DNA of 64,000 nt from Thalassobius vesicularis (GTDB lineage Bacteria > Pseudomonadota > Alphaproteobacteria > Rhodobacterales > Rhodobacteraceae). A model generated the notes under the pieces. The model searched no databases. It was not told the origin of the DNA and was given only the letters and a program-made list of their open reading frames with translations. The DNA lies in assembly GCF_004799325.1 (NCBI RefSeq), contig NZ_SSMD01000006.1, positions 124,001 through 188,000 on the forward strand, written 5' to 3'. The translations under genes and the position numbers were made by a program. Positions 18,194 through 42,010 of the stretch are shown here, piece by piece (the first letter of the stretch is position 1; the number at the start of each line of letters is the position of its first letter).

Positions 18194-18609
18194 AGCGGGA
18201 CGGGCACCATCGTGCCCTGCAGGATCGCCACCAGCTTTTCCTGATCGCCGGTGCGGGCGACGACCTCGGACGTGACGATGACCAGCTTGCGGCCGGGCTT
18301 GATGACGCGGCCCGTGGCGATCAGCAGATCGCCGCGCGCGGGCGCCAGAAGGTTGATCTTGATCTCGGCGGTGACGACCTCGTGGTCGTCGGGGATCATG
18401 GTCAGGGCAGAATAACCCGCAGCCGAATCCCCGATCGCAAAGGTCAGTGCAGCATGGCCGTGGCCCTGTTGCTGGGTCGAGCCGGGCAGGATCGGCGCGG
18501 TGATCTGTACCGTGCCGGGTGCCACCGAATGCAGGCGCGCGCCCAGCGTGGTCATCATCGCCTGCCGGTCAAAACTGGCGGAAATCCGGGCCGTTAGGGT
18601 GTCTGTCAT
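18190..18609 (-). CDS. PaaI-family hotdog thioesterase
   Basis: A 139-residue single-hotdog thioesterase. The segment STQQQGHGHAALTFAIGDSA (about residues 44-63) holds the family's catalytic His/Gly and Asp positions. INLLAPARGDLLIATGRVIK is the second conserved strand pair. The ATG at 18609 has AGGAGGATC upstream; an earlier in-frame start at 18660 lacks a ribosome binding site. It sits between, and convergent or divergent to, two LytTR regulators, overlapping the first tail-to-tail. The substrate acyl group is unknown. Confidence 0.85.
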   Translation of the reverse strand: MTDTLTARISASFDRQAMMTTLGARLHSVAPGTVQITAPILPGSTQQQGHGHAALTFAIGDSAAGYSALTMIPDDHEVVTAEIKINLLAPARGDLLIATGRVIKPGRKLVIVTSEVVARTGDQEKLVAILQGTMVPVPL

Positions 18610-18746
18610 CTGATCCTCCTGCCGTGACGGTAACGAAGCTGTGACCGTGGCGCAATCCACGCGCGCTGTTGCAACCCAGCGATGTTTGATTATAACAGGC
18701 TGATATCAATTATTTTTATTGTGCTTTGGGTGGTGGGAACACGATT

Positions 18747-19550
18747 ATGTTGTCTGGGCTGAGGAATACGCTGCGTCACGTGTTGCGCCCGGCGACACTG
18801 CTGCCCTGGTTCATGTTCTCGCTGGCGGCCACCGTGACGGGGCCGTTCAACACCCTGGCCCTGCTGGATGACCTGCCGCGCGCGGTGTACTGGGCGGGTA
18901 TCGTGGGCGGTGCGATGGTGCTGTCGCATCTGCTGTCCCAGGCGATCTTTCTCTGGATACCCGACCGCAGCAGCCGGATGTTCGATCTGGCGCGCGTGTG
19001 TGCGATGGTGGTGGTGTTCTCGCCGCTGGCCTATGGCTGGACGCGGATCATGATCCCGGCCCGCGTGGCGCATTCGCCCAGCATGGCCAAGATCGGCCTG
19101 TTCGTGGCGCTGATCGGGACGGTGGTGCATATCAGCAAGCGGATTTTGCGCGGGCAGGACCCGTTCGTGCGGCAGACGGACGGCGCGCTGACCCTTGGGT
19201 TCCCCGAGCCGGAAACGCCCGAGGTCGAGGCCACGCCCGAGCCGCGCCTGATGCGTCGACTGCCCGAGGGGGCGACGGGGCCGGTGCTGCGGCTGTCGGC
19301 CAGCGATCACTTTGTCGAGGTGGTGCTGGCAGAGGGAGCGCACAGTCTGCGGATGCGCTTTACCGACGCGATCGACGAGATGGACGGGATCGAGGGCTAT
19401 TGCAGTCACCGCAGCCACTGGGTGACGCGCGCAGCAATTGCCGGGGTCGAGCGGGACGGCGCGAAAATCGCGCTTCGGCTGGTCAATGGCGACGAGATTC
19501 CGGTCAGCCGGACCTATAAGCCACAGCTGGAAGAGGCCGGTATCCTTTAG
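18747..19550 (+). CDS. Membrane-anchored LytTR-type transcriptional regulator (paralogue 2)
   Basis: A 267-residue protein with about four membrane helices (residues 10-130) and a C-terminal LytTR domain (about 165-265: LRLSASDHFVEVVLAEG, SHRSHWVTRAAIAGV, EIPVSRTYKP). It shares with the 17435 gene the VTGPF motif of the first helix, the R-A-x-YW second-helix start, RRLP before the LytTR domain and the HRSHWV and PVSR motifs, so the two are clear paralogues. The ATG at 18747 lies in frame after an unlikely TTG at 18726. Its stop overlaps that of convergent pdeM by 2 bp. Confidence 0.88.
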   Translation: MLSGLRNTLRHVLRPATLLPWFMFSLAATVTGPFNTLALLDDLPRAVYWAGIVGGAMVLSHLLSQAIFLWIPDRSSRMFDLARVCAMVVVFSPLAYGWTRIMIPARVAHSPSMAKIGLFVALIGTVVHISKRILRGQDPFVRQTDGALTLGFPEPETPEVEATPEPRLMRRLPEGATGPVLRLSASDHFVEVVLAEGAHSLRMRFTDAIDEMDGIEGYCSHRSHWVTRAAIAGVERDGAKIALRLVNGDEIPVSRTYKPQLEEAGIL

Positions 19551-20209
19551 CGCGGCATCGGGATCGGGCGGGGGATCGCGCCGGTCAGGATGGCCAACGC
19601 CTCGGGGCGCATGAGGTCCGAGAGCGCGGTGTTGTCGCTGCGCAGCCCGCCAGTGAAGGTGCCGTAAGCGGGCAGGATCAGGCGGTCGGAATCCAGCAGG
19701 AAACAGGGGCGCGACAGGGATTGGCCGCGCGTGCGCAGGCGGGCCTTGGGGTGGTAATGGCCCGAGACCTCTCCGGATGCGCCGGGGCGGGCGATGTGGC
19801 GGAAGGCCAGCGGCGGCAGCGGCAGTTCGGCCAAATGGGTGCCGCCCAGCTGGATCGGGCCGGCATCGTGGTTGCCCTCGATCCAGACCCAGCGGCGTCC
19901 GGCCTGAAGACGGGCGATCCACAGGGCCTCAGCCTCGGTCAGTTCGTGCAGCGCGGTCATGTCGTCGAACGTATCGCCCAGGCAGACGACGGTGGCGGCG
20001 CCGGTGGCGGCCAGGTCCGCTTCGAGCCGGGTCAGCGTGTCGTGGGTTTCGTAGGGCGGCAGTTGCGCGCCGCCGTGACGCGCCGCGCGTTCAGCCTTGC
20101 CAAAGTGCAGGTCCGAGACGCAGAGCAGCCGCTGGTCCGGCCAGTACAGCGCGCCGGACCCCAGCGCCTGCAATTTCGCGCCAGCCAGAGTGAAATCGAA
20201 TACGTTCAT
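19547..20209 (-). CDS. pdeM: Ligase-associated DNA damage response endonuclease PdeM
   Basis: A binuclear-metal phosphoesterase of 220 residues with the complete metal-binding set: VSDLHFGKAERAARHG (about 31-46), CLGDTFDD, IEGNHD and SGHYHPKARL. In the bacterial Lhr-Pde-Lig-Exo repair cassette this protein processes 2',3'-cyclic or 3'-phosphate ends. It lies 50 bp downstream of the Lhr-type helicase gene on the same strand, as expected. The ligase and exonuclease partners are not in this window. Confidence 0.9.
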   Translation of the reverse strand: MNVFDFTLAGAKLQALGSGALYWPDQRLLCVSDLHFGKAERAARHGGAQLPPYETHDTLTRLEADLAATGAATVVCLGDTFDDMTALHELTEAEALWIARLQAGRRWVWIEGNHDAGPIQLGGTHLAELPLPPLAFRHIARPGASGEVSGHYHPKARLRTRGQSLSRPCFLLDSDRLILPAYGTFTGGLRSDNTALSDLMRPEALAILTGAIPRPIPMPR

Positions 20210-20259
20210 GATATGTTCATGCCTTGCCGCGTACACCATTGCAAGAGTGCAGCGCGGGG

Positions 20260-22659
20260 TCAGGCCAGCCCGGCGGCCTGCATTAGGCGGTCTGCCTCGT
20301 CGGCCAGCAACCGGTCCTGCGCGGTGCCCTGAATCGGCACCTTGCCCACCTCCAGCAGCAGGGGGGCGGCCAGGGGCGTGACGCGAGGCAGGATGTTGTG
20401 GGTGATGCGGCCCTGAATGCGGGTCAGCATCTCTTCGATGCGGCCGAAATCAACAAGGCCGCGCATCGCCTCGTCGCGGGTGATGCGTAGCAACAGGTGG
20501 TCAGGGTCATACTTGGCCAGCGTGTCATACAGAATGTCGGAGGAGAACGTCGCCTGCCGCCCCGATTTGCGCTGGCCCTGATGGCTGCGCTGGATCAGCC
20601 CGGCGATGGTGGCCGAGGCGCGGAAGGTGCGTTTCATCACCGCGTTGCCGCGCAGCCACCCTTCGAGCCCGTCGGCCAGGGCCTGGGGGTCAAACAGCGG
20701 GGCGGGGTCGGTGACGGGGTCCAGCCCCCAGACCAGCGTGGCGTAGTCGGTTGCGACAAAGCCGAGCGGGGCGAGGTTCAGCGCCTCCATCCGTTTGGTC
20801 AGCAGCAGGCCCAGCGTTTGCTGCGCGTTGCGACCGGCAAAACCGTAGGCGCACAGGTGCTGGCGCCCGTCATGGGGAAAGGTTTCGACCAGCAGCGCCC
20901 CCGGTTCGGGCAAAGATGACACATCGGCCTGAAGCCGCAGCCAGTCGGTGGTGTGGTCGGGCAGGGCGCTGAAATCGCCATCCTGAAACAGGCGCAGGAT
21001 GCGGTGCGACAGCTGCGTCGAGGTCGAGAACTTGGTGCCCGAGAAGGTCGCCACCTTGGGTTTGCGGCCCTTGTCGCGGCTGACCTCGACGGTCATTTCG
21101 CGCAGGCCCTCGTAGCGCACGATCTGGCCACCGATCAGGAAGGTGTCGCCGGGGGTCAGGCTGGCGGCAAAGCTTTCCTCGACCTCGCCCAGGGCGGGGC
21201 CGCGGCCGCGCATCCGCACCTTCAGCAGGTCGCTGTCCTGAATGGTGCCGATGTTCTGGCGGATCAGCACGGCGCTGCGCGGGTCGCGCAACTGCCAGAG
21301 GCCGTCTGGGCGCTGTTGCAGGCGCTGCCAGCGGTCATAGGCGCGCAGGGCATATCCGCCGGTGGCCACGAAATCGAGGCAGTCGTCGAACTGCGCGCGG
21401 GTCAGGGTGGCGTAGGGGCCAGCGCTGCGGAACTCGGCCAGAAGGGCGTTGGCGTCGAAGGGACCGGCGCAGGCGGCGATCAGGATGTGCTGGCACAGCA
21501 CATCCAGCGGGCCGGGGCCGCGCGGGTCGCCGTCCAGATCATGCGCCTTGACGGCTTCGAGGGCGGCAAGGCATTCGACGACCTCGAACCGGTTGGCGGG
21601 GACCAAAAGCGCCTTGGAGGGGGCGTTGTAGCGGTGGTTGGCGCGGCCGATGCGCTGGACCAGACGTTTGACGTTCTTGGGGGCGCCGACCTGGATCACC
21701 AGATCGACATCGCCCCAGTCCAGCCCCAGATCGAGCGAGCCGGTGCAGACGATGGCGCGCAACTGGCCGGCGACCATCGCGGCCTCGACCCGTTCCCGCT
21801 GGGCGCGGTCAAGGCTGCCGTGGTGAATGCCGATGGGCAGGGCGTCGTCATTGGCCAGCCACAGGTTGTGAAAGAAGATCTCGGCCTGGGCGCGGGTGTT
21901 GTGAAAGATCAGCGTGGTGCGGTGCTGGCGGACCTGATCCAGCACGGCCGGAATGGCATAGGCCGCCCCGCCGCCGGACCAGGGCGGGGGCTGGTCGGTG
22001 ACCAGCATGCGGATGTCGGGGTCGGGGCCGGGATCGGCCTGCAGGATGGCGCAATCGTCGGGGTGACGGGCCAGAAAGCGGGCAATCGCGGCGGGGTCAT
22101 CGACGGTAGCGGACAGGCCGACACGGCGCAGGCCGGGGGCGAGGGTTTGCAGGCGGGCCAGCGCCAGCATCAGCTGATCGCCCCGCTTGCTTTCGGACAG
22201 GGCGTGGATTTCATCGACGACGACGCGTTGCAGCCCGGCAAAGATGCGCGGCGCGTCCGGGTAGCTGACCAGCAGGGCCAGCGACTCGGGCGTGGTCAGC
22301 AGGATATGGGGCGGGTCGGCGCGCTGGCGGCGTTTCTGGGTGTAGGTGGTGTCGCCGGTGCGGTCCTCGATCCGGATGGGCAGGGCCATCTGTTCGACCG
22401 GGCCGGTCAGGTTACGGCGGATGTCTGCGGCCAGCGCCTTGAGCGGCGAGACATAGAGCGTGTGCATCCCCTGATGGGTGCCGTCGGCCAGTTCCAGCAG
22501 GGTGGGCAGGAACCCGGCCAGCGTCTTGCCGCCGCCGGTGGGGGCGATCAGCAGCAGGGCGGGATCGGCGCGGCGGGCCAGCATCTGGGACTGGTGCGGA
22601 TGCAGCGACCAGCCTTTGGCGGCAAACCAGTCAGAGAAGGGCGCGGGAAGCGGCGTCAT
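20260..22659 (-). CDS. lhr: Ligase-associated DEXH-box helicase (Lhr-core type)
   Basis: A 799-residue superfamily 2 helicase. Motif I is APTGGGKTLAGFLPTLLE near residue 40, motif II VVDEIHALSESKRGD, motif III GLSATVDDP, and motif VI LVQRIGRANHRYN. A long C-terminal winged-helix/Lhr-core region follows. The length matches the short ligase-associated Lhr form, not the 1500-residue E. coli type. It is a 3'-5' translocase presumed to act in DNA end repair with PdeM, the next gene. No ligD-like ligase or Lexo gene is adjacent. Confidence 0.92.
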   Translation of the reverse strand: MTPLPAPFSDWFAAKGWSLHPHQSQMLARRADPALLLIAPTGGGKTLAGFLPTLLELADGTHQGMHTLYVSPLKALAADIRRNLTGPVEQMALPIRIEDRTGDTTYTQKRRQRADPPHILLTTPESLALLVSYPDAPRIFAGLQRVVVDEIHALSESKRGDQLMLALARLQTLAPGLRRVGLSATVDDPAAIARFLARHPDDCAILQADPGPDPDIRMLVTDQPPPWSGGGAAYAIPAVLDQVRQHRTTLIFHNTRAQAEIFFHNLWLANDDALPIGIHHGSLDRAQRERVEAAMVAGQLRAIVCTGSLDLGLDWGDVDLVIQVGAPKNVKRLVQRIGRANHRYNAPSKALLVPANRFEVVECLAALEAVKAHDLDGDPRGPGPLDVLCQHILIAACAGPFDANALLAEFRSAGPYATLTRAQFDDCLDFVATGGYALRAYDRWQRLQQRPDGLWQLRDPRSAVLIRQNIGTIQDSDLLKVRMRGRGPALGEVEESFAASLTPGDTFLIGGQIVRYEGLREMTVEVSRDKGRKPKVATFSGTKFSTSTQLSHRILRLFQDGDFSALPDHTTDWLRLQADVSSLPEPGALLVETFPHDGRQHLCAYGFAGRNAQQTLGLLLTKRMEALNLAPLGFVATDYATLVWGLDPVTDPAPLFDPQALADGLEGWLRGNAVMKRTFRASATIAGLIQRSHQGQRKSGRQATFSSDILYDTLAKYDPDHLLLRITRDEAMRGLVDFGRIEEMLTRIQGRITHNILPRVTPLAAPLLLEVGKVPIQGTAQDRLLADEADRLMQAAGLA

Positions 22660-22880: not shown

Positions 22881-24068
22881 TCAGGCGGGGAAAATCTCGA
22901 ACAGGCCCGCAGCGCCCATGCCGCCCGCGATGCACATCGAGACCACGCCGTATTTGGCGCCGCGACGGCGGCCTTCGATCAGCAGATGGCCCGCAAGGCG
23001 CGCGCCGGTCATGCCGAACGGGTGGCCGACCGAGATCGAGCCGCCGTTGACGTTCAGCTTGGCCGGGTCGATGCCCAGCGTGTCAGCACAGTAGAGCGCC
23101 TGCGAAGCGAAAGCCTCGTTCAACTCCCACAGGTCGATGTCGTCCATCGTCAGGCCGGTCTGTTTCAGCAGCTTGGGGATGGCGTAGACGGGGCCGATGC
23201 CCATCTCGTCGGGTTCACAGCCCGCGACGGCGAACCCGCGCAGGGCACCCAGCGGGGTGGCACCGGATTGGGCGGCCAGAGACGCCTCCATCACCACGCA
23301 GGCCGACGCGCCGTCGGACAGTTGCGAGGCGTTGCCTGCGGTGACGAACTTCTCCGGGCCCATCACCGGGTCCAGCCCGGCGAGGCTGTCGAGCGTGGTC
23401 GAGGGGCGGTTGCATTCGTCGCGGGTGACGGTGACGGGCTGCATGGAAACCTTGCCGGTCTCGCGGTCCTTCACGGCCATCAGCGTGTCCATCGGGACGA
23501 TCTCATCGTCAAACGCCCCGGCGGCCTGCGCGGCGGCGGTGCGCTGCTGGCTGGTGAGCGAGAACGCATCCTGCGCGGCGCGGCTGATCCCGTAGCGGGC
23601 GGCGACGATGTCAGCGGTGTCGATCATCTGCATGTAAACGGCGGGTTTGTGCTCTTTCAGCCAGGCCTCTTCCAGCTGGTTCTTGTTCAGGACTGGCTGG
23701 ACCAGCGAGATCGACTCGACGCCCCCCGCGACCACGGCCTGGGTCTGGCCCAAGGTGACCGCGTTCGAGGCCATCGCGATCGCTTGCAGGCCCGAAGCGC
23801 AGAAGCGATTGACGGTTTGGGCCGCGCTGCCGACGGGCAGGCCCGCGCGGATCGCGGATTGGCGGGCGATGTTCATGCCGGTTGCCGCCTCGGGGAAGCC
23901 GCAGCCAAGGATCACGTCGTCGATCAGGGCGGGGTCCAGTTTGGCGCGGTCCACGGCATGGCGGACGACATGCGCGCCCATCGTGGCGCCGTGGGTGGCG
24001 TTCAGCGATCCGCGAAAGCTTTTGGCCAGGCCGGTGCGGGCGGTCGAGACGATGACGGCGTCTTTCAT
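22881..24068 (-). CDS. Acetyl-CoA C-acyltransferase (thiolase)
   Basis: A degradative thiolase of 395 residues that cleaves 3-oxoacyl-CoA with CoA. The acyl-accepting Cys is at about residue 90 in NRFCASGLQAIA. The C-terminal catalytic His is in GGSISVGHPFGMTGAR and the second Cys in CIAGGMGAAG. It is the last gene of the six-gene acyl-CoA operon and is followed by a terminator. The AMP-dependent ligase gene overlaps it: in transcription order the ligase (25735 to 24065) ends inside the thiolase start (24068) as ATGA, so translation is coupled. Confidence 0.93.
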   Translation of the reverse strand: MKDAVIVSTARTGLAKSFRGSLNATHGATMGAHVVRHAVDRAKLDPALIDDVILGCGFPEAATGMNIARQSAIRAGLPVGSAAQTVNRFCASGLQAIAMASNAVTLGQTQAVVAGGVESISLVQPVLNKNQLEEAWLKEHKPAVYMQMIDTADIVAARYGISRAAQDAFSLTSQQRTAAAQAAGAFDDEIVPMDTLMAVKDRETGKVSMQPVTVTRDECNRPSTTLDSLAGLDPVMGPEKFVTAGNASQLSDGASACVVMEASLAAQSGATPLGALRGFAVAGCEPDEMGIGPVYAIPKLLKQTGLTMDDIDLWELNEAFASQALYCADTLGIDPAKLNVNGGSISVGHPFGMTGARLAGHLLIEGRRRGAKYGVVSMCIAGGMGAAGLFEIFPA

Positions 24069-25735
24069 TGGGTGGTATCCTTGGATTTGGCGTTTTCACG
24101 TTCTTGCAGCTCGCGCCACAGCACCTTGCCCGAGCCGGATTTCGGCAGGGCGGTCACGATTTCCAGCAGGCGCGGCACCTTGTAGGCGGCCATGTGGTCA
24201 TGCGCCCAGGTGGACAGTTCCTTGGCGGTCAGGGTCGCGCCGGGTTTCAGCACCGCCACGGCCTTGACGGTTTCGCCGCGATAGGGGTCGGTGGAGGCGA
24301 TGATGCAGGCCTCTTCGATGGCGGGGTGGTGGTAAAGCTTGGCCTCGACCTCGGTCGGCCAGACCTTGTAGCCCGAGGCGTTGATCATGCGTTTCAGGCG
24401 GTCGACGATGAAGATGTAGCCGTTCTCATCCAGATACCCCAGATCGCCGGAACGCAGGAACCGCTGGTTTTCGAGGGTGACGAAGGATTCGGCGTTGGCC
24501 TCGTCATTGTTCCAGTAGGCCAGCATGACCTGCGGGCCGGAAATCAGGATTTCGCCGGTTTCGCCTTGGGGCATGGGGGTCAGCGTGTCGGGGTCCACGA
24601 TGGCGACATCGGTGTTGAACACCGGGATGCCCGCGCATTGCGGTTTGGGCAGGTGCGGCGGGTTGGCGCTGGTGGGGGCGATGGTTTCGGTCATGCCGTA
24701 GCCTTCGAGGAAGGTCAGGCCGGTGAGGCGGCGCAGCTTCTCGGCCACGGCCTCGGGCATCGCAATCCCGCCGCCCCAAAGGACGCGCAGGGTGGCCAGA
24801 TCGTCGTCGCGCAGGGTGGGGCGGTTGAGGAAGTCGATGATCATCGTCGGCACGCAGGGCCAGGCGGTGACGCCGAATTCGCGGATCAGGTGGGCGGCGA
24901 TTTCGCGGTCCCAGCGGGGCAGGATCACGGATGTGCCACCAGCCTGAATGGCCGAGTTCAGGCCAGCCTGAAGGCCGACGACGTGGAACATGGGCGCGAC
25001 GCAGAAGAACACGTCCTCCCCGCCCAGACCGAACCAATCCACCATCGAGTTGATGGCGTGGATCGCGGTCTGATGGCTATGCATGCAGCCCTTGCCGCGG
25101 CCGGTGGAGCCCGAGGTGTAGGGCATCACGGCCAGATCCTGTGGCGTGCGGGTGAACGGCGCGGGGGTTTCGTTGGCGGCGATCATCTCGGCCCATGCTG
25201 TGCAATGGCCGGGCAGGGTGGCGCGGGGGGCGGCGATCTCGGGCGGCAGGTTCTCGTGCGGGTCGGCGGGCAGCTCGTCGGAATAGGTGGCGACGATCAC
25301 GTGGTCGAGGATGTTCTGGGCCAGAAGCGGCTCCAGCTCGCGCTCGCGGTCCTGCGCGGTGAAAAGGGTGCGGATGCCGGCGTCCTCGACGATATAGTCC
25401 GTCTCATCCGTCAGGTTCATCGGGTTGATCGGCACGGCCACGGCCCCGGCGCGGATGATGCCGTAGAAGGCAGCCACCCATTGCGGCGAGTTTTGCAGCT
25501 GGATGCCCACGCGGTCGCCGGGCTGTACGCCGCAGCGGTTTTGCAGCCAACCGGCAATGCGGGTGGCCTGATCGCCCAGCTGGGCATAGGTCGTCACGCG
25601 GCCATAGAACACCAGCGCCGCCTTGTCGGGGGTGGCGGCGGCATGGCGGAACAGGTTGTCGTTCAGCGTATGCGCGGGCGCGGGAATATCGTGGGGCCGG
25701 CCCAGCGGCCAGACCTTGTGGTGCAGTCGTTCCAA
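24065..25735 (-). CDS. AMP-dependent acyl-CoA synthetase (fatty acid/carboxylate-CoA ligase)
   Basis: An ANL-superfamily ligase of 556 residues that activates a carboxylic acid to its CoA thioester via an acyl-adenylate. The P-loop MPYTSGSTGRGKGCMHSH is near residue 205, the A5 motif EGYGMTETIAPTS near 345, the A7/A8 region FLRSGDLGYLDENGYIFIVDRLKRMI near 425, and the A10 lysine in PKSGSGKVLWRELQ at the end. The substrate cannot be read from sequence. It most likely performs the entry step of the pathway encoded by this operon. Confidence 0.93.
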   Translation of the reverse strand: MERLHHKVWPLGRPHDIPAPAHTLNDNLFRHAAATPDKAALVFYGRVTTYAQLGDQATRIAGWLQNRCGVQPGDRVGIQLQNSPQWVAAFYGIIRAGAVAVPINPMNLTDETDYIVEDAGIRTLFTAQDRERELEPLLAQNILDHVIVATYSDELPADPHENLPPEIAAPRATLPGHCTAWAEMIAANETPAPFTRTPQDLAVMPYTSGSTGRGKGCMHSHQTAIHAINSMVDWFGLGGEDVFFCVAPMFHVVGLQAGLNSAIQAGGTSVILPRWDREIAAHLIREFGVTAWPCVPTMIIDFLNRPTLRDDDLATLRVLWGGGIAMPEAVAEKLRRLTGLTFLEGYGMTETIAPTSANPPHLPKPQCAGIPVFNTDVAIVDPDTLTPMPQGETGEILISGPQVMLAYWNNDEANAESFVTLENQRFLRSGDLGYLDENGYIFIVDRLKRMINASGYKVWPTEVEAKLYHHPAIEEACIIASTDPYRGETVKAVAVLKPGATLTAKELSTWAHDHMAAYKVPRLLEIVTALPKSGSGKVLWRELQERENAKSKDTTQ

Positions 25736-25756
25736 ATCATCCTCCCATTTGGCCGG

Positions 25757-26524
25757 TCAGGCCGTTGCGCCGCCATCCACGGCCAGGCATTGCCCGGTAA
25801 CATGCCGGGCGGCCGGGCTGACCAGGAAAATGGCAGCACCTTTCAGGTCTTCATCCCCGCCGAAGCGGTGCAGCGGGATCGAGGGAAGCAGGGTCTGCTC
25901 CAACCGGTCGATCAGCTTTTCCGACATTTTGGAGGGGAAAAATCCGGGCGCAAGCGCGTTCACGTTGATGCCGTGACGGCCCCATTCGGTGGCCAGCGCA
26001 CGGGTGAAGTTGATCATCGCCGCCTTCGAGCTGTTATAGGCGATGGTGAACATGTCGCTGTCGGCGCGGTTGCCGGACAGGCCACCAATCGAGGCGACGT
26101 TCAGGATATTGCCGGTCTTGCGCGGCAGGAACGAGGCTTTCGCCACCGCCTGTGTCAGCACGAAGGGCGCGGTCAGGTTCAGGGTCATGACCTTGTTCCA
26201 GCCGTCCAGCGGGTGATCCTCGGTCGGCGAGGCCCAGCTGGTGCCCGCGTTGTTCACCAGAATGTCGATGGGGCCGAAAATCGCGTTGGCCTGATCGACG
26301 ACGCCGGGGATGCTGTCCAGATCGGACAGGTCACAGGCGATGGTAGCGACGCGGGGTGTGATCTTTTGCAGATGGGCCTGTGCGTCGTCCAGCTCGGCCT
26401 GTTTGCGGGCGGTCAGGATGACGGCGGCGCCAGCCTCGGCCAGCCCTTCGGCGATTTGCAGGCCCAGCCCGCGCGAGCCGCCGGTGATCAGGGCGACCTT
26501 GCCGGTCAGGTCAAACAGGCGCAT
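25757..26524 (-). CDS. Short-chain dehydrogenase/reductase (3-hydroxyacyl or 3-oxoacyl type)
   Basis: A classical SDR of 255 residues. The cofactor motif is ALITGGSRGLGLQIAEGLAE (about 11-30), NNAG follows near residue 90, and the catalytic Ser is in NVASIGG. Tyr and Lys are in AYNSSKAAMINFTRALATEW near residue 160. A Thr/Arg-rich TARKQ after beta-2 suggests NADP preference. It starts inside the end of the 3-hydroxyacyl-CoA dehydrogenase gene (14-bp overlap), confirming co-transcription. A second hydroxyacyl-oxidising enzyme in one operon suggests two distinct oxidation steps or stereoisomers. Confidence 0.9.
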   Translation of the reverse strand: MRLFDLTGKVALITGGSRGLGLQIAEGLAEAGAAVILTARKQAELDDAQAHLQKITPRVATIACDLSDLDSIPGVVDQANAIFGPIDILVNNAGTSWASPTEDHPLDGWNKVMTLNLTAPFVLTQAVAKASFLPRKTGNILNVASIGGLSGNRADSDMFTIAYNSSKAAMINFTRALATEWGRHGINVNALAPGFFPSKMSEKLIDRLEQTLLPSIPLHRFGGDEDLKGAAIFLVSPAARHVTGQCLAVDGGATA

Positions 26525-27833
26525 GGGTGGCCTCCTTTAGCGAAGCGGGGATTTGCCAGGCGGTGTCGGCGCGGCCGCTGAGTGCGCCGTAGTGGCGGGC
26601 CAGATCCAGCACGTTATCGACGCCCAGTTCCTGCGCCAGACGGATCGGCCCGGCCAGTGCGGCCGGAAAGCCGTAGCCGGTGGTGTAGACCACGTCGATA
26701 TCCGAGCCGCGGCGGGCGCGGTGTTCGGGGATCAGGGCCAATGCCTCGACCATCAGGGCGGTGATGACGCGACCCACGATTTCGGCGGCGGGGATGGCGC
26801 GGCGGGTCAGGCCGAGGTCCTGACTGGTGCGCGAAATCAGCGCCTGTATGTCCTCGTAATTGCGGCCCTTGGGGGTGGCGGCGTCGTACAGATACCAGCC
26901 GCGTCCGGTTTTCTGGCCGTGCAGGCCGGCCTCGCACAGGGCGTCGCCGATGCGGGGTTGATGCGGCGGGTTGGGGCGCTCGGCGCGTTGTTTGCGCACG
27001 CCCCAGGGGATGTCGTTGCCGACGAGATCCAGCGCGCGGAAGGGGCCGATGGCCATGCCCCAGCGTTCCAGCGCGTCGTCCACGTCTTGCGGCCAGGCGC
27101 CTTCCTCAAGCAGGTACATCGCCTCTTGGTGGAAGCGGTCAAACAGGCGGTTGCCGATGAAACCGTCGCCATTGGCGGCGATAACGGCGCGTTTGCGGAT
27201 GGTCTGGGCCAGCGCCAGAACGGTCGTCAGGGTGGCATCCGAAGTGGTCTGGGCGGGGATCAATTCCAGCAGGGGATTGACCTGCGCGGGCATGAAAAAA
27301 TGCGTAGCGACAAAGCGCGAAGGATCAGCCATAGCGCCCGCAATGGCGTCCACATCCAGCGTCGAGGTGTTGGAGGTGATCAGCGTGTCAGGGGCGACGG
27401 TGCGCTCGATTTCAGCCATGACCTGCTGTTTGAGGGACAGGATTTCGGGCACCGCCTCGACCACCAGATCGGCCTTGGCAAAGGCGGAAATCGCGTCGGA
27501 AAAGCTGAAGCGCGCCATCTGGGCGGCGGCCTGATCGGCGGTCAGCTTGCCCTTGGCGGCGCTGCGGTCGGTCAGGGATTGCAGATGGGTGCGGGCTGTG
27601 TCCAGCGCCTGTTCGGAGGGGGCCACCAGGATGACCTGATGGCCGGTCTGGGCGAAGGCCATGGCGATGCCACGGCCCATCGCACCGGCCCCCAATACGC
27701 CCACGACCCGGATTGTGGAGGGGTCGCGATGCGGCGTGTCAGGCACCTGGCCCGCGATCTGGGCGGCCTGCGTCAGGTAGGACGCAGCGCCGTCGATCGC
27801 GGTCAGCTGGAAAAGCCGGTCTTCGGTGCTCAT
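26511..27833 (-). CDS. 3-hydroxyacyl-CoA dehydrogenase (stand-alone, no hydratase domain)
   Basis: A 440-residue protein with an NAD-binding domain (VVGVLGAGAMGRGIAMAFAQTG, about residues 48-70). Its catalytic His region is FVATHFFMPAQVNPLLELIP near residue 185, followed by two C-terminal 3HCDH repeats (GFIGNRLFDRFHQEAM and a degenerate second copy). Unlike FadB it lacks an enoyl-CoA hydratase domain, and no hydratase gene is present in the operon. The ATG at 27833 overlaps the acyl-CoA dehydrogenase stop (ATGA). Confidence 0.92.
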   Translation of the reverse strand: MSTEDRLFQLTAIDGAASYLTQAAQIAGQVPDTPHRDPSTIRVVGVLGAGAMGRGIAMAFAQTGHQVILVAPSEQALDTARTHLQSLTDRSAAKGKLTADQAAAQMARFSFSDAISAFAKADLVVEAVPEILSLKQQVMAEIERTVAPDTLITSNTSTLDVDAIAGAMADPSRFVATHFFMPAQVNPLLELIPAQTTSDATLTTVLALAQTIRKRAVIAANGDGFIGNRLFDRFHQEAMYLLEEGAWPQDVDDALERWGMAIGPFRALDLVGNDIPWGVRKQRAERPNPPHQPRIGDALCEAGLHGQKTGRGWYLYDAATPKGRNYEDIQALISRTSQDLGLTRRAIPAAEIVGRVITALMVEALALIPEHRARRGSDIDVVYTTGYGFPAALAGPIRLAQELGVDNVLDLARHYGALSGRADTAWQIPASLKEATHAPV

Positions 27834-29149
27834 TCCGCGGCCTCGGCAGCCTTGCGGGCGGCGATTGCGGCGGCGATGCCGGGACGGATGTCGGTTTCCG
27901 ACGCGCGATCCGGCACGGTGTAGAAGCGGTGCGAGTTCATCGGACCGTTTTGCGCGGCCTTGACCAGCGAACGACCGAGCGAGCGCAGGTGCACCTCGTC
28001 GGGGCCATCGGCCAGACGCAGCGAACGCGCCATCGTCCACAGATCGGGCAGCGGCGTGTCGCCGGTCACACCCATGCCGCCGAAAATCTGGATCGCGCGA
28101 TCCACGACTTTCAGGTGCATTTCCGGGACCACGACCTTGATCATGGCGATCTCGTCCTTGGCGGCCTTGGCGCCGACGTTGTCGATCATCCACGCGGCTT
28201 TCAGCACCAGCAGGCGGGCCTGTTCGATCTCCATGCGGGAACGGGCGATCATCTCCATCACGACGCCCTGTTCGTGCAGGTATTTGCCGAAGGTTTTGCG
28301 CTCCAGCGCGCGCTCGGTCATCAGTTCCAGCGCCAGTTCGGCCTGCCCGATCGAGCGCATCATGTGGTGGATGCGGCCCGGTCCAAGGCGCGCCTGTGCC
28401 AGTGCAAAGCCCGAGCCTTCGGTGCCCAGCAGGTTCGAGACGGGGACGCGGACGTTCTTGTAGACGACCTCGCAGTGGCTTTCGTAGCTTTCGTGGTTCA
28501 TCACCGTCAGGTTGCGGGTGATGGTGATGCCGGGGGTGTCCATTGGCACCAGGATCATGGATTGCTGCGAATGGCGCGGCGCGTCGGGGTCGGTTTTGCC
28601 CATGACGATGCACAGCTTGCAGCGCGGCGAGGCGGCGCCGGTCGAGAACCACTTGCGGCCGTTGATGACGTATTCATCCCCGTCGCGGCGGATCAGGGTC
28701 TGCACGTTGGTGGCATCGGACGAGGCGACATCGGGTTCCGTCATGCCAAAGCAGGAACGAATCTCGCCGTTCATCAGGGGCTTGAGCCACTTTTCCTTCT
28801 GCTCGGGCGTGCCGAACATGTGCAGGATTTCCATGTTGCCGGTGTCGGGGGCCGAGCAGTTGAACACCTCGGACGCCCAGGGCAGGCGGCCCATGATCTC
28901 GGCCAGCGGGGCGTAGTCGAGGTTCGACATGCGGGTGCCGGGCTCGTCATCCTTCAACGAGGGCAGGAACATGTTCCACAGCCCTTCGGATTTCGCCAGC
29001 GCCTTCAGGTCGTCCATGAAGGACAGGGTGAAGGTGCCGTTGTGCTGCTCGGCCACGAAATCGCGGTGCCGGGGGATGACGTGATCCTCCATGAAGTTGC
29101 GCACGCGGGCCTGCATTTCGAGGCTTTTCTCAGAGAAGGTGAATTCCAT
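27830..29149 (-). CDS. Acyl-CoA dehydrogenase (ACAD10/11-like)
   Basis: A flavin acyl-CoA dehydrogenase of 439 residues. It has the FAD-binding FGMTEPDVASSDATNVQT (about 140-157), the GRKWFSTGAASPRCKLCIVMG strand, the C-terminal GRIHHMMRSIGQAELALELM and QIFGGMGVTGDTPL. The length and the position next to an APH-type phosphotransferase gene match the bacterial ACAD10/11 arrangement, where kinase and dehydrogenase domains are fused in animals. The ATG at 29149 has AGGAGA 6 bp upstream; a start at 29164 would add five residues. Confidence 0.92.
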   Translation of the reverse strand: MEFTFSEKSLEMQARVRNFMEDHVIPRHRDFVAEQHNGTFTLSFMDDLKALAKSEGLWNMFLPSLKDDEPGTRMSNLDYAPLAEIMGRLPWASEVFNCSAPDTGNMEILHMFGTPEQKEKWLKPLMNGEIRSCFGMTEPDVASSDATNVQTLIRRDGDEYVINGRKWFSTGAASPRCKLCIVMGKTDPDAPRHSQQSMILVPMDTPGITITRNLTVMNHESYESHCEVVYKNVRVPVSNLLGTEGSGFALAQARLGPGRIHHMMRSIGQAELALELMTERALERKTFGKYLHEQGVVMEMIARSRMEIEQARLLVLKAAWMIDNVGAKAAKDEIAMIKVVVPEMHLKVVDRAIQIFGGMGVTGDTPLPDLWTMARSLRLADGPDEVHLRSLGRSLVKAAQNGPMNSHRFYTVPDRASETDIRPGIAAAIAARKAAEAAE

Positions 29150-29150
29150 G

Positions 29151-30158
29151 TTATTCTCCTGCAAGGTCTAGTCCGTGCCGGGCCCAGACCCGGCTGAGAT
29201 GGTCGATGCCTTCGGCGCTGCCGATGCCCTTGGCCGCGCGGGCGACGATGCCCTCGAAGATCACGGCAAGGCGGAAATAGGCGAAGGCGGTGTAGAAGGG
29301 GCTGTCATCGACAGGCAGCCCCCGGGTCGCGAAATAGCGGGCGGTGTAGGCGGCGGCGTCGGGGATACCCAGCGCGGCCAGATCGCGGTCGCCCAGACCG
29401 TGGTATTCCTCGGCCAGGTTGGTCCAGGGCATCAGGTTATAGCCCAGGTCCGAGAGCGGATGGCCCAGCGTGGACAGCTCCCAATCCAGCACGCCCAGCA
29501 CTTCGGGCTTGGTGGGGTGGAAGATCAGGTTGCCAAGGCGGAAATCGCCATGCACCAGCGTGGTTTCATCGCTGGCGGGCTTGTGCGCGTCCAGCCATGC
29601 GGCGAGTTGCGGGATCTCGTCGATCTCGCGGGTTTTGCCGGCCTCGTATTGCTTGGTCCAGCGGCCAATCTGGCGGGTGTAGAAATCGCCGTGGCGGCCG
29701 AAATCCGACAGGCCCGCAGCGTCCAGATCGACGGAGTGCAGTTTCGCCAGCGTGTCGCACATCGACTGGAACATCGCGGTGCGGTCGGCGGGGGCGATGC
29801 CCGGCAGGCTGTTGTCGTGGAAAACGCGACCGTCCAGACGCTCCATCAGGTAGAACGGGGTTCCGATCACCTCGCGGTCGGCGCAGTAATGCGGCGCGGC
29901 GGGGACGGGGACATCAGTGGCGGCCAGCGCGTTGATGACGCGGAATTCGCGGTCGATGGCATGGGCCGAGGGCAGCAGTTCACCAGGCGGTTGCTTGCGC
30001 AGAACGTAGCGCGCGCCGCCGAAATCCATGAAATAGGTCGGGTTGGAATGGCCGCCGGCGATCTGTTCCAGCGCCACGGGGCCGGTGCCCGGCAGCACGC
30101 CGCTCAGGTAATCCGCCAGCCGGTTCGGATCGAACGGCAGGGTGGGTGTTTTGGTCAT
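29151..30158 (-). CDS. Phosphotransferase (APH/choline-kinase fold; ACAD10/11 kinase-domain-like)
   Basis: A 335-residue small-molecule kinase of the aminoglycoside phosphotransferase fold. The catalytic loop LVHGDFRLGNLIFHP (about residue 200) has the HGDxxxxN motif. The metal-binding VLGVLDWELSTLGHPLSDLGY follows. The N-terminal GGHSNPTYFMDFG and YVLRKQPPGELLPSAHAIDRE are typical of proteins annotated as acyl-CoA-linked phosphotransferases. The association with acyl-CoA genes argues against antibiotic resistance and for phosphorylation of a hydroxyacyl-CoA. It is the first gene of the operon; GGGAGG precedes the ATG at 30158. Confidence 0.9.
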   Translation of the reverse strand: MTKTPTLPFDPNRLADYLSGVLPGTGPVALEQIAGGHSNPTYFMDFGGARYVLRKQPPGELLPSAHAIDREFRVINALAATDVPVPAAPHYCADREVIGTPFYLMERLDGRVFHDNSLPGIAPADRTAMFQSMCDTLAKLHSVDLDAAGLSDFGRHGDFYTRQIGRWTKQYEAGKTREIDEIPQLAAWLDAHKPASDETTLVHGDFRLGNLIFHPTKPEVLGVLDWELSTLGHPLSDLGYNLMPWTNLAEEYHGLGDRDLAALGIPDAAAYTARYFATRGLPVDDSPFYTAFAYFRLAVIFEGIVARAAKGIGSAEGIDHLSRVWARHGLDLAGE

Positions 30159-30239
30159 TGGTCTTGCCTCCCTGTTGACAGATCGCACATTCAGAACTCA
30201 TAAGAAAATGAATTACCAAGATGTATTGGCATAGATGAG

Positions 30240-31172
30240 ATGAATATATCGCGCACCGACCTGAACCTGTTCGTGGTATTCGAGGCGATCTACTCGCAGG
30301 GGGGCGTTACCCGCGCCGCCGAGATGCTGCACCTGACGCAGCCAACGATTTCGCACGCCTTGGGGCGGTTGCGTGAACGGGTGGGCGATCCGCTGTTCGT
30401 GCGGCATGGGCAGCGGCTGGTGCCGACGCCGCTGGCACAAAAGATGATCGGCCCGACCCGCGAGGCGCTGAAACTGTTCGAAACCACGCTGGGCGAGCTG
30501 GACGGATTCGACCCGGCGACGGCGTCGATGCATTTCTCGATCGGGATGCGGTCGCTGATGGAGAACAGCTTTTTCCTGCCGCTGGTGATGCTGGTGAACT
30601 CGGTCGCGCCCAAGGTGACGCTGGCCTCGGCGCAGCTGGACCGGCGGCGGATCGAGGGGGATTTGTCCTCGGGCGAGTTGAACGCCGCGATTGACGTGTT
30701 CCTGCCGCTGGGCGCGGATATCCGGCGCGAGCATCTGATCTCCAGCCCGTCGGTGGTGGTGGCACGGCGCGGGCATCCGTTGGTGCAGGGCCAGATCACG
30801 CTGGACGATTATCTGGCGCTGGATCATGTCATCGTCACCTCGCGCCCGCGCGGCGCGGGCCCCGAGGACATCGCCCTGTCGCGCGAAGGAAAGACGCGCC
30901 AGATCGCGGCGCGCTGCCAGCAGATCAACACGGCGATGCGGGCGGTGGCGTCCTCGGACCTGGTGCTGACGATGGCCGAGACCTTCGCGCGGCGGGCCAA
31001 TGTGTGGTTCGACAACCAGATCGTGCCGGTCCCGTTCGAGGCACCGCGCATCGACGCCTACCTGTATTGGCACGCCAACACGGATGCGGACCCCGCCAAC
31101 CTGTGGCTGCGCAGCACGATCAAGAGCTGCGTCGCCGAGGCCGATTGGGCGGGGCCCGCTCAGACGCTCTAG
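30240..31172 (+). CDS. LysR-type transcriptional regulator
   Basis: A 310-residue LysR regulator. The N-terminal winged helix (residues 4-65) contains GGVTRAAEMLHLTQPTISHALGRLRERVGDPLFVRHGQ, here seen as a clear recognition helix followed by the wing. The C-terminal co-inducer domain includes HPLVQGQITLDDYLALDHV. It diverges from the kinase/dehydrogenase operon across 81 bp, the usual position for the regulator of that operon. Its stop overlaps that of the convergent TRAP large-permease gene. Confidence 0.92.
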   Translation: MNISRTDLNLFVVFEAIYSQGGVTRAAEMLHLTQPTISHALGRLRERVGDPLFVRHGQRLVPTPLAQKMIGPTREALKLFETTLGELDGFDPATASMHFSIGMRSLMENSFFLPLVMLVNSVAPKVTLASAQLDRRRIEGDLSSGELNAAIDVFLPLGADIRREHLISSPSVVVARRGHPLVQGQITLDDYLALDHVIVTSRPRGAGPEDIALSREGKTRQIAARCQQINTAMRAVASSDLVLTMAETFARRANVWFDNQIVPVPFEAPRIDAYLYWHANTDADPANLWLRSTIKSCVAEADWAGPAQTL

Positions 31173-32449
31173 AAGAACGCGTGGGTGGCCAGCATCCCAA
31201 CCACCAGCAGCAGGTCAGCCAACAGGAAGGGCAGGATGCCCGCAAAGATCTGTTCCAGCTTGACCAGATCCTTGGCGACCGAGTGGATGACGAACACGTT
31301 TAACCCAACGGGTGGCGTGATCATCCCGATCTCGAGCAGTTTCGCCAGCAGGATGCCGAACCAGATCACGTCGACCCCGTGCGCCTTGATCAGGGGCAGG
31401 AACAGCGGCAGGGTCAGCAGCATGGCCCCGATCGGTTCCAGGAACATCCCCAGCGCCAGGTAGATCAGGGTGATCAGGATCAGGATGCCCAGCACGCCCA
31501 GGCCCAGGCTTTCGATGCCGGTGCCGATCCAGCGCGACAGGCCGGACAGGGCGACCAGACGGGTGAACAGGTTCGCGCCGATGGCGATCATGAACAGCGA
31601 GCCCGAGGACAGCAGCGTATCGACGCAGCTTTCCATGAACAGCTTCCACGACAGGGTTCTGCGCGCCACGCCGATGAGGATCGAGATGACGGCGCCGACG
31701 GCCCCGGCCTCGGTCGCGGTGAACAGTCCGGAGAACAGCCCGCCAAAGACGATGGCGATCATCACCATGACCGGCCAGACCTCTTTGACGCCTGCGATAC
31801 GCTCGTCCCAGTTCGAGGCGGCGGCGCGGGGCAGGCGTTCGGGCGCCAGAACATAGCTGACCAGCACCGCGGCGATGTACAGGCCCAGCGAAATCAGGCC
31901 GACGACCAGACCGCCCATGAACAGCTTGGTGATGGACACCTCGGCCTGGATGCCGAACAGGATCAGCAGGATCGAGGGCGGGATCAGCGCGCCGATGGTG
32001 CCGCCCGCCGCGACCGAGCCGGTGGCGATGCGGATGTCATAGCCCATGCGGTGCATTTCCGGCACGGCGATACGGCCGATGGCGGCGGAACAGGCGATGG
32101 AGCTACCGGTGACGGCGGCAAAGCCACCCGCCCCCGCCAGCGAGGCAATCGCCAACCCGCCGGGCATCCAGCCCAGCCAGGCGCGTGCGCCTTCGAACAT
32201 GCCGCGGGTCAGGCCCGAGTGATAGGCGACATAGCCCATCAGCAGGAACATCGGCACCGAGGACAGGGTCCAGCTGGCGGCGAAGTTATAGGGCACGGTG
32301 GACAGCATCGACATGGCCGGGCGCTCGCCCACGATGGCCCAGATGCCGACGAAGGAAACGAAGATCAGCGCGACGGCAATCGGCACGCGCAGCATGATCA
32401 GGCCAAGCACACCGACGACGGCGAACAGACCAATGCTCATCGGGTCCAT
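31169..32449 (-). CDS. dctM: TRAP transporter large permease subunit DctM
   Basis: A 426-residue, 12-helix inner-membrane protein and the ion-coupled channel subunit of a TRAP carboxylate transporter. It has the family's LLMGYVAYHSGLTRGMFEGA, AAVTGSSIACSAAIG, GGTIGALIPPSILLILFG and FLEPIGAMLLTLPLFLP signatures. It is the third gene of the dctPQM operon; the dctQ stop precedes its start by 2 bp. Confidence 0.95.
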   Translation of the reverse strand: MDPMSIGLFAVVGVLGLIMLRVPIAVALIFVSFVGIWAIVGERPAMSMLSTVPYNFAASWTLSSVPMFLLMGYVAYHSGLTRGMFEGARAWLGWMPGGLAIASLAGAGGFAAVTGSSIACSAAIGRIAVPEMHRMGYDIRIATGSVAAGGTIGALIPPSILLILFGIQAEVSITKLFMGGLVVGLISLGLYIAAVLVSYVLAPERLPRAAASNWDERIAGVKEVWPVMVMIAIVFGGLFSGLFTATEAGAVGAVISILIGVARRTLSWKLFMESCVDTLLSSGSLFMIAIGANLFTRLVALSGLSRWIGTGIESLGLGVLGILILITLIYLALGMFLEPIGAMLLTLPLFLPLIKAHGVDVIWFGILLAKLLEIGMITPPVGLNVFVIHSVAKDLVKLEQIFAGILPFLLADLLLVVGMLATHAFF

Positions 32450-32451: not shown

Positions 32452-32988
32452 TCAGTCCTCTTTCTCGATGGGGTCAGTGATGATGGCCGGATCGGCGGGC
32501 GCATCCCGGAAGTGGCCCGAGGCCAGCTCGATGATGCGCAGGGCGATCACGATGAACATCAGCACAAAGCAGACGGGCAGAATCCACGCGCCGGGCCAGG
32601 TGTAGAAATCCATCGCGCCGGCCTCGACATAGGCGCCGCGCTTGGTTTGCACCCACGCCTCGGAGGCGGTGCCATAGGCCAGGATGCCGTAGACGATCAG
32701 CGACAGCACGAAGCCCAAGGCATAGATCGGCCCGTGGGTCCATTTCGGCATCATATCGGTGAAGATGGACGCCTCGACATGGCGACGCTGCACCTCGGCA
32801 TAGGCGATCGGCAGAAAGCTGACGGCCAGCATGTAGTACTTTGAGACGACCTCGGCGGTGGCCGGGAACCCGGCCCCCACGAGGTTTCGCATCGCCACGT
32901 CGATCACGATCTGAAGCGCCATCAGGATAAGGATGGCGCTTCCGACCCATTTCGTCGTGGACGCGATGAAGCGATCCGCGAAACCCAT
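32452..32988 (-). CDS. dctQ: TRAP transporter small permease subunit DctQ
   Basis: A 178-residue protein with four membrane helices (about 12-33, 48-66, 88-108 and 135-157). It has the DctQ-type VDVAMRNLVGAGFPATAEVV-like segment and YAEVQRRHVEASIFTDMMP, typical of small TRAP subunits. Located between dctP and dctM with only a few base pairs between genes. Confidence 0.93.
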   Translation of the reverse strand: MGFADRFIASTTKWVGSAILILMALQIVIDVAMRNLVGAGFPATAEVVSKYYMLAVSFLPIAYAEVQRRHVEASIFTDMMPKWTHGPIYALGFVLSLIVYGILAYGTASEAWVQTKRGAYVEAGAMDFYTWPGAWILPVCFVLMFIVIALRIIELASGHFRDAPADPAIITDPIEKED

Positions 32989-32994: not shown

Positions 32995-34104
32995 TTATTG
33001 ACCGTAGGTGTTGAAGTCGACCTTCGACCAGATCTCGGCAAAGCGCAGCTCGGCCAGTTCGTCCGAGGTGTGGACGTTCTGAACCAGGCCTTCCCACTTG
33101 GCCAGCAGGGCCTTGTAGCGCTCGATCTTGGCGGCGGCGTCTTTCACGCCACGGCTTTCGAGGGTGGCTGCGGCACCGGCCAGGTGTGCTTCGCGGAACT
33201 CGGCGGCCTTGGCTTTAAGACCCTCGTCGGGGGTGATGAACTCAACGCCTTTTTCTTCGCCGGTTTTGCGGGCCTCATCGGTGGTGTCGATCCAGCTTTG
33301 CACGCCGATGGTCTGCGCATATTGCGAGGCATGGGCCAGTGCGGCGCGGTCTTCGGCGGACATGCGGCCCCACAGCATCGACGAGGCGTTGGTCATCGCG
33401 GCGGCGTTGAACACGCCCTGGTCGATCATGGTGACGTATTTCACGACGTCATACAGTTGCGCGTTCTTCAGGTCGGCAACCGAGGAATAGGTCGCGTTGA
33501 TGACGCCCGAGGACAGGCCTTCGAACAGTTCCGACGAGGGCATCTGCACGGGTTCGGCACCCAGCGATTCCACGAAACGGGTGAAAACCGAGCCAGCGGT
33601 ACGGATGCGCACGCCCTTCATGTCGTCCAGGGTGCGGATCGGCTTGGAGGACAGGAACTCGTAGTTGGTGGTGGCGTCCGAGCCCAGGAAGACGTGGCCG
33701 GCGCGGGCGAATTCTGCCTGGCACTCGGCGCAGGTCGCGATGTATTCGGTCACCGCCGACGAGATCGCGCGGTTGTCGGTGCCCAGGATCGACAGCTCGC
33801 CCACGATGCCGGATTCGGGGTAATCGGCGGCGAAATAGGGCAGGATGATCGGGCCGAGATCGGAAATGCCGTCGCGCAGGCCGGTGTTCATCTCGTTCGG
33901 GGCCAGCAGGCCCGACGGGGTGTCGTAACCGGTCCAGCGACCAGCGGTGAATTCCTCGAGCTTTTTGAACAGCGCGGGGTAGCCAGCGGTGGCCAGCACG
34001 TGGCTGGGCCCGAAGGACGAGGTGGCGCGGATTTCATCGGCAGCGGCGGGCAGCGCGATGGCGGCGCTGATGGTGGCTGCGGTAAAGACGTGTTTCAGGT
34101 TCAT
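32995..34104 (-). CDS. dctP: TRAP transporter periplasmic substrate-binding protein DctP
   Basis: A 369-residue DctP-family binding protein with a signal peptide (1-21, ending LPAAADEI). The conserved binding-domain stretch includes SSKPIRTLDDMKGVRIRTAG, where the Arg in IRTAG is the residue that usually salt-bridges the substrate carboxylate. The ATG at 34104 has GGGAGG upstream; a longer frame to 34149 lacks a signal-peptide start. The substrate is unknown. The next-door catabolic operon suggests an organic acid. Confidence 0.93.
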   Translation of the reverse strand: MNLKHVFTAATISAAIALPAAADEIRATSSFGPSHVLATAGYPALFKKLEEFTAGRWTGYDTPSGLLAPNEMNTGLRDGISDLGPIILPYFAADYPESGIVGELSILGTDNRAISSAVTEYIATCAECQAEFARAGHVFLGSDATTNYEFLSSKPIRTLDDMKGVRIRTAGSVFTRFVESLGAEPVQMPSSELFEGLSSGVINATYSSVADLKNAQLYDVVKYVTMIDQGVFNAAAMTNASSMLWGRMSAEDRAALAHASQYAQTIGVQSWIDTTDEARKTGEEKGVEFITPDEGLKAKAAEFREAHLAGAAATLESRGVKDAAAKIERYKALLAKWEGLVQNVHTSDELAELRFAEIWSKVDFNTYGQ

Positions 34105-34301
34105 GGGGACCTCCCTTAGGCAACTGCGTTGAGGCCGTCCTTTGGGCATGGCTCCGCCAGGGCCGGGCCTGTGGGTCCGGTCTGATCTGGGGCTGTGCTG
34201 TCAAGGCGTGGGGCCTGTCATCCGGCTGGGCGAGGGGTGCCCGTGGTCAGTCTCCTCTGGTGCGACCGGACCGGATGGGGAGGATAATACATGACCCAGA
34301 T

Positions 34302-37984: not shown

Positions 37985-38014
37985 TGTTTGCGTCCTTTTA
38001 CTGCTCTTGCCCGA

Positions 38015-38578: not shown

Positions 38579-38586
38579 TTATCTGC

Positions 38587-39555: not shown

Positions 39556-39565
39556 TGCTGCCTCC

Positions 39566-40534: not shown

Positions 40535-40539
40535 GGCGA

Positions 40540-41991: not shown

Positions 41992-42010
41992 CTGTATCTA
42001 CCCCTTTGTC

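Follow-up and report, generated by a model that had tools for sequence, protein, structure and literature searches.

The locus described here raises the question of which acids are degraded by an operon that couples a kinase of the aminoglycoside phosphotransferase (APH) fold to an acyl-CoA dehydrogenase (ACAD). It lies in a 64,000-nt window (the whole stretch of DNA that was analysed) from the 3.79 Mb draft genome of Thalassobius vesicularis. Six minus-strand genes at positions 22881–30158 encode, in transcription order, the kinase, the ACAD, a 3-hydroxyacyl-CoA dehydrogenase (HAD), a short-chain dehydrogenase/reductase (SDR), an acyl-CoA ligase and a thiolase (Table 1). Their junctions are, in order, a 1 nt gap, overlaps of 4 and 14 nt, a 21 nt gap and a 4 nt overlap. 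These calls agree with the initial annotation, which had described an operon of overlapping genes in this order, and such tight junctions make a single transcript likely. In our view, the genes form an operon that breaks down 4-hydroxy (or 4-oxo) carboxylic acids under the control of the adjacent LysR-type regulator, with a probability of about 0.78. Its core is likely to be the phosphorylation of a 4-hydroxyacyl-CoA followed by elimination of the phosphate, since the ACAD carries the corresponding residue set and the kinase has its catalytic residues and clear identity to ACAD11.

Active-site residues of the dehydrogenase and the kinase

The best solved relative of the ACAD is mouse ACAD11 (8v3u, 7.5e-124), with 196 of 391 query residues identical (50%). 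The protein carries RLGPGRIHHMMR at residues 254–265 and the motif LADGPDEV, with Asp381 as the catalytic aspartate, and its residues align with Arg626, Arg631, His634, Arg637 and Asp753 of the mouse enzyme. Arg626, His634 and Arg637 are reported to bind the 4-phosphate and Asp753 to be catalytic, and the second arginine is described as conserved across the whole ACAD family; non-conservative substitutions of Arg626, His634 and Arg637 impaired the ACAD step most, with only a partial effect for Arg637 to lysine (PMC12440821). The ACAD has 32 matches in its own genome, of which 18 distinct genes were inspected for the motif. The full set is present in three (the window gene, C6:206624 and C2:45493) and absent in 15. 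The first arginine and the histidine occur in none of these 15 ordinary ACADs, the last arginine occurs in one and the second arginine is common to them. It thus appears to be the whole residue set, and no single residue, that marks an ACAD of the phospho-acyl type. In a phylogenetic tree, the ACAD groups with those of a genome of the same genus (G005) and one of the same family (G013) with support of 100/99.

The other two own-genome genes with the full set (G000:C6:206624-207796 and G000:C2:45493-46695) are further ACAD10/11-type genes, 55% and 51% identical to the window gene; the 19.5 kb retrieved around either gene contain no kinase match. Many Rhodobacterales also have a cluster of SDR, ACAD, ligase and kinase genes (L092, L106, L110, L111, L117 and others; L167 6375-10984), extended in some by a TRAP (tripartite ATP-independent periplasmic) transporter, a thiolase, a gene of the enoyl-CoA hydratase (ECH) family and a regulator annotated as KstR. 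The ACAD of this cluster, 35–40% identical to that of the window, carries RLGPARLTHCMR and an aspartate in DGADEV (24 rows of the motif table), and such proteins appear to be a second branch of phospho-acyl-like ACADs.

The kinase contains the motif HGDFRLGN at residue 203 (catalytic Asp205 and Asn210) and DWE at residue 225. Its matches among solved structures include 3dxp (7.3e-93) and the kinase domain of mouse ACAD11 (8v3v, 6.7e-71), with 134 of 312 query residues identical to the latter (about 43%). The comparison with the ACAD11 kinase domain that the initial annotation had proposed was made here by sequence, and it bears out the likeness through the shared HxD....N and DWE motifs as well as this identity. 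We therefore predict a 4-hydroxyacyl-CoA kinase. The kinase domains of ACAD10/11 are reported to be 29% identical to LvaA, with higher values for kinases of other bacteria (up to 51% and 38%); in vitro, each ACAD10 domain could be replaced by its counterpart from Burkholderia, a kinase and an ACAD related to LvaA and LvaC (PMC11342911). The window proteins are 48–51% (kinase) and 66–68% (ACAD) identical to those encoded in clusters of phosphatase, kinase, SDR and ACAD genes of Burkholderia, Caballeronia and Azoarcus. At most one gene separates the kinase gene from the ACAD gene in all three operons (window, G005 and G013), as also in several further clusters. The pairing first suggested for this locus, following the logic of ACAD10/11 and LvaC, is accordingly upheld by the residues and by the published activity of bacterial relatives, and it is on these that the assignments of both proteins rest. 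The pair shares the ACAD pocket residues, the catalytic aspartate and the kinase catalytic residues with mammalian ACAD10 and ACAD11, but it consists of two proteins where the mammalian domains are fused, and it sits in an operon with a ligase, an SDR, an HAD and a thiolase.

A second close kinase of the same genome (G000:C4:123409-124413; L078 10401-14297) is 46% identical to that of the window and is accompanied by a histidine phosphatase, an SDR and a thiolase 57% identical to the window thiolase. The one ACAD inspected in that stretch lacks the phospho-acyl motif.

The LysR gene and conservation of the locus

A LysR-type gene is divergent from the kinase gene, and three TRAP genes (34149–31169) converge on it from the far side; the initial annotation mentions neither. 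A search of plasmids with the LysR protein matched 1383 records, 30 of which were listed, sorted by coverage and identity; from these 30 we took the 12 top-scoring rows (182 bits or more: H151–H160, H166 and H176). A motif-bearing ACAD gene adjoins the LysR gene in ten of these 12, and all ten ACADs carry the phospho-acyl motif. The rows span Alpha-, Beta- and Gammaproteobacteria, but several are close relatives of one another: Burkholderia and Pseudoalteromonas account for three and two rows, and a single Caballeronia strain contributes two plasmids, so that the total is six genera. None of six lower-scoring LysR controls (143–152 bits) has an annotated ACAD within 3 kb, and a tblastn search for the window ACAD and kinase was negative in the stretches from the controls and from the two exceptions. 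In the reverse direction, a search of the T. vesicularis genome with the LysR protein of the Caballeronia cluster gives six matches, led by the window LysR (3e-55 versus 2e-30 for the next).

The regulator appears to be tied more to the ACAD than to the kinase, since the partner kinases in Azospirillum, Ideonella and Pseudoalteromonas are only 32–35% identical to that of the window, and in Variovorax boronicumulans, whose plasmid carries the closest LysR relative among those listed facing a motif-bearing ACAD gene (L159 9998-12366), no kinase match was found in the fetched 21 kb. In Ruegeria sp. THAF33, which came up in the ACAD search, genes for LysR, kinase and ACAD precede those for a GMC oxidoreductase and a TRAP transporter; identity to the window proteins is 33% for its LysR and 30% for its DctM. 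We propose that the window LysR is probably a dedicated regulator of kinase/ACAD chemistry. The link between this LysR subfamily and the ACAD is new here and is the most useful new lead from the locus; in the open-access literature searched, no title or opening of an abstract concerned this operon or a LysR regulator of such clusters.

The kinase is found at 73% identity or more in three of 101 genomes searched, namely its own, G005 and G013. All six operon genes, the LysR gene and the three TRAP genes are kept in order in G005 (76–93% identity), and G013 retains five of the six (kinase, ACAD, HAD, SDR and ligase) together with LysR (62–78% identity). As the order is kept in two other genomes, the layout is not due to chance. 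Among 394 genomes drawn from the family, 28 have a kinase match at 1e-95 or better, with identity above 55% in just two, the own genome and G013. A contig search for close kinase relatives from named genomes returned only two loci, from a Rhodobacteraceae metagenome-assembled genome (85%) and a betaproteobacterial one (50%). The exact operon is therefore rare among the genomes searched. An alignment of the region between the LysR and kinase genes (30159–30239) from the three loci contains a largely conserved block near CATAAGAAAATGAAT...GGCATAGA, which is a possible operator.

Candidate pathway and competing explanations

The SDR passes the PRK08213 model (NF006070) with 365.8 bits against a cut-off of 279, the ligase passes PRK08314 (NF006181; 757.8 bits, cut-off 705) and the thiolase, which contains NRFCASG and CIAGGMG motifs, passes PRK07108 (NF005494; 621.5 bits, cut-off 615). 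In the Azoarcus and Caballeronia clusters the SDR passes PRK07035 instead, so the window SDR is probably not an orthologue of these proteins; those of Bosea and Rhodococcus clusters pass PRK08213. The window SDR could act on a 4-oxo or a 3-oxo group.

We propose the following pathway. The acid would enter the cell, perhaps through the TRAP transporter, and be converted to its CoA thioester by the ligase. The SDR probably interconverts keto and hydroxy forms, either at the 4-position (4-oxo to 4-hydroxy) or with a 3-hydroxy epimer. Phosphorylation of the 4-hydroxyl by the APH kinase, with ATP as donor, would follow, and the ACAD would remove the phosphate through oxidation, elimination and internal re-reduction to give 2-enoyl-CoA and some 3-hydroxyacyl-CoA. 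Water would be added by a hydratase encoded elsewhere or by the ACAD itself, the HAD would yield 3-oxoacyl-CoA, and the thiolase would split off acetyl-CoA and a shortened acyl-CoA.

The HAD corresponds to the C-terminal two-thirds of a FadB/FadJ-type protein. Pfam detects no ECH domain in the HAD of the window or of G013, and the open frame in G005 is too short for one. The length of the frame from stop to stop was dropped as a criterion in favour of Pfam, as the window frame spans 720 codons for a gene product of 440 residues. In all five plasmid relatives examined (among 30 listed of 1037 matching records), an ECH_1 domain precedes the HAD. Ser157, His178, Glu190 and Asn228 are present in the window protein and presumably correspond to the four catalytic residues of HAD enzymes.

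The initial annotation had taken the missing hydratase as a sign of a distinct route. The operon indeed encodes none, but the argument drawn from it is weak: the genome has 34 ECH_1 matches, none of them in the window, so a hydratase is easy to supply in trans, and ACAD10, and LvaC by earlier work cited, are reported to form 3-hydroxyacyl-CoA in part (PMC11342911). The Bosea cluster retains an ECH and one Rhodobacterales cluster has a separate gene annotated as of this kind. Loss of the ECH domain is only suggestive of hydration by the ACAD. In a more daring version of the pathway, the ACAD would take 4-phosphoacyl-CoA to 3-hydroxyacyl-CoA, so that the hydratase domain of its partner became dispensable and was lost in this lineage, and a LysR subfamily common to Alpha-, Beta- and Gammaproteobacteria would sense the 4-hydroxy acid, its CoA or its lactone form, with a natural substrate other than levulinate. 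We hold this combination to be doubtful.

Several observations weigh against assignment of the operon to 4-hydroxy acids. The ligase and thiolase belong to generic fatty-acid subfamilies, and neither the thiolase nor the TRAP genes have a match in the 20 kb fetched around the G013 locus. Two of the 12 LysR relatives, from Ruegeria pomeroyi and a P. aeruginosa plasmid, have no ACAD in the fetched stretch. The catalytic column of the 15 ordinary own-genome ACADs holds Glu in three, Asp in two and other residues in ten, and our case rests on the whole residue set because the aspartate also occurs in those two. The tetrapeptide HCMR of the mammalian enzymes is kept in G013 but reads HMMR in the window and G005, with His and Arg retained. 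The position of the ACAD group next to those of Ruegeria, Azoarcus, Burkholderia and Caballeronia has moderate support (85/74), and the tree gives the kinase no firm place, so its phylogeny was dropped as evidence of orthology.

An lva operon proper would employ the same enzymes, with activation by the ligase, reduction of levulinyl-CoA by the SDR, the kinase and ACAD steps, and then HAD and thiolase to give propionyl- and acetyl-CoA. Each function of LvaA, LvaC, LvaD and LvaE has a counterpart here, in keeping with the ligase, SDR, kinase and ACAD logic of P. putida KT2440, and the HAD and thiolase would complete the breakdown of 3-hydroxyvaleryl-CoA. This explanation is nevertheless unlikely: a LysR regulator takes the place of the sigma54-type LvaR and a TRAP transporter that of LvaFG, the ligase and thiolase fall in long-chain or general subfamilies, and the SDR passes PRK08213, whereas the two SDRs compared with it, from phosphatase-containing clusters, pass PRK07035. 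Membership of the P. putida lva operon was rejected on the regulator, the transporter and LvaB. No recognizable lva operon was present in nine stretches from eight genomes with a close ACAD, which gave one Burkholderia-type cluster (L148) and one kinase–ACAD pair (L151). Absence of LvaB had also been put forward as a mark of a different route. The six genes fill the operon, with 1 nt between kinase and ACAD, and leave no lvaB in it, the rest of the genome not having been searched for LvaB; this part of the claim stands. Its use as an argument does not, because no lvaB was found either in the region analysed of the levulinate cluster of P. citronellolis LA18 (PMC6692424), and the lack of LvaB is hence no sign of a different pathway. 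LvaB has no mention in the main text of PMC11342911. The P. citronellolis cluster likewise has kinase, ACAD, SDR and ligase, but with a histidine phosphatase and an LvaR-like regulator, and no HAD or thiolase is seen in the part of its gene table covered (PMC6692424).

The same kinase/ACAD chemistry might instead serve an aromatic, cyclic or sterol-derived hydroxyacyl-CoA. A relative of the window DctM in Rhizobium sp. Q54 (52% identity) lies beside genes annotated as feruloyl-CoA synthase and 4-hydroxyphenyl-beta-ketoacyl-CoA hydrolase, but the DctP identity (33%) is too low to transfer a substrate, the operon has no aromatic or sterol gene, and the HAD and thiolase best match fatty-acid families; we judge this improbable. 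Far less probable still is that the operon serves ordinary beta-oxidation of fatty acids and that its kinase does something unrelated. The ligase, HAD, SDR and thiolase all come from common families, as such an operon would require, yet the ACAD pocket residues are of the phospho-acyl type, ACAD10/11 were reported inactive on the C6–C22 acyl-CoAs tested (PMC12440821), and the kinase and ACAD genes keep company as described above.

Among known systems, the Burkholderia, Caballeronia and Azoarcus clusters are close in kinase and ACAD, and a related LysR gene adjoins those of Burkholderia and Caballeronia. They differ in having a histidine phosphatase, which the window operon does not encode, and the window operon adds the HAD, ligase and thiolase. 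The KstR-annotated Rhodobacterales cluster (for example in CP031586) resembles the window in its kinase, SDR, ligase, thiolase, TRAP genes and an ACAD with Arg/Arg/His/Arg and Asp; it differs in its divergent ACAD, its regulator and a separate ECH-family gene, with no HAD in the stretch shown. Similar sets of functions are gathered elsewhere, on a Bosea plasmid and in this cluster (TRAP, thiolase, ECH, SDR, ACAD, ligase and kinase).

Transporter, neighbouring genes and implications

Table 1. Coordinates of the operon and adjoining features in the window
Feature	Position	Strand	Remarks
APH-fold kinase, predicted 4-hydroxyacyl-CoA kinase	29151..30158	-	335 aa; PF01636 1.2e-53
ACAD10/11-type ACAD, predicted 4-phosphoacyl-CoA phosphate eliminase	27830..29149	-	439 aa; three acyl-CoA dehydrogenase domains (Pfam)
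HAD, FadB/FadJ type without ECH domain	26511..27833	-	440 aa; 3HCDH_N 1.7e-54, 3HCDH 1.6e-27
SDR, PRK08213 subfamily; possible 4-oxo/4-hydroxyacyl-CoA or 3-hydroxyacyl-CoA oxidoreductase	25757..26524	-	255 aa; NF006070
AMP-forming acyl-CoA ligase, PRK08314 subfamily	24065..25735	-	556 aa, TTG start; NF006181; PF00501 1.9e-98
Acetyl-CoA C-acyltransferase (thiolase), PRK07108 equivalog	22881..24068	-	395 aa; NF005494; Pfam thiolase N and C
Intergenic region, predicted operator/promoter	30159..30239		81 bp between divergent kinase and LysR genes
LysR-type regulator, predicted operon regulator	30240..31172	+	PF00126 and PF03466
TRAP large permease DctM, possible acid uptake	31169..32449	-	PF06808 2.2e-84
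TRAP small permease DctQ	32452..32988	-	PF04290 6.8e-17
TRAP solute-binding protein DctP	32995..34149	-	PF03480 5.7e-30

The TRAP genes are present at the operon locus in G005 and not in G013. The window DctM is 50–53% identical to DctM in three fetched kinase loci (L108, L110 and L115; 50% for L110, of the KstR-annotated type) versus 43% at most for its own-genome paralogues, which, in such small numbers, is a hint of a shared substrate; most fetched kinase loci show no DctM-like gene. Derivation of the substrate from the transporter was abandoned, as DctP is too distant from its best solved relatives (about 5e-20) and its 30 listed plasmid relatives are at most 36% identical. In Rhizobium sp. 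Q54 (L165, LR606150.1), the related TRAP transporter is flanked on one side by genes annotated for CoA metabolism of the coumarate/ferulate type and on the other by a type I-C CRISPR locus.

The gene next upstream of the TRAP genes, on the same strand (34378–35211), belongs to the 6-phosphogluconate/3-hydroxyisobutyrate dehydrogenase family. Further away are Tad/Flp pilus assembly genes (37124–46707: a TPR protein, TadB/TadC-type proteins, a T2SSE ATPase, a secretin, RcpC/CpaB and an OmpA-like protein). Downstream of the operon lies an unrelated helicase gene, of the Lhr type and beside a small metallophosphoesterase gene (19547–22659), followed by a pair of adjacent LytTR DNA-binding genes (17435–19550).

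The chemistry of 4-hydroxy acids is already known; this gene set and its LysR link are new. The mammalian enzymes that act on such acids were described in 2024–2025 (PMC11342911; PMC12440821), and the bacterial gene sets covered in the work cited here are levulinate clusters from two pseudomonads (PMC6692424). The operon of T. vesicularis would combine ACAD10/11 chemistry with a ligase, a thiolase and a regulator of its own. Its ECH-less dehydrogenase makes self-hydration by the ACAD directly testable, and its LysR may serve as a marker for finding such pathways across Proteobacteria. The natural substrate of the operon may be one that differs from the levulinate of biorefineries.

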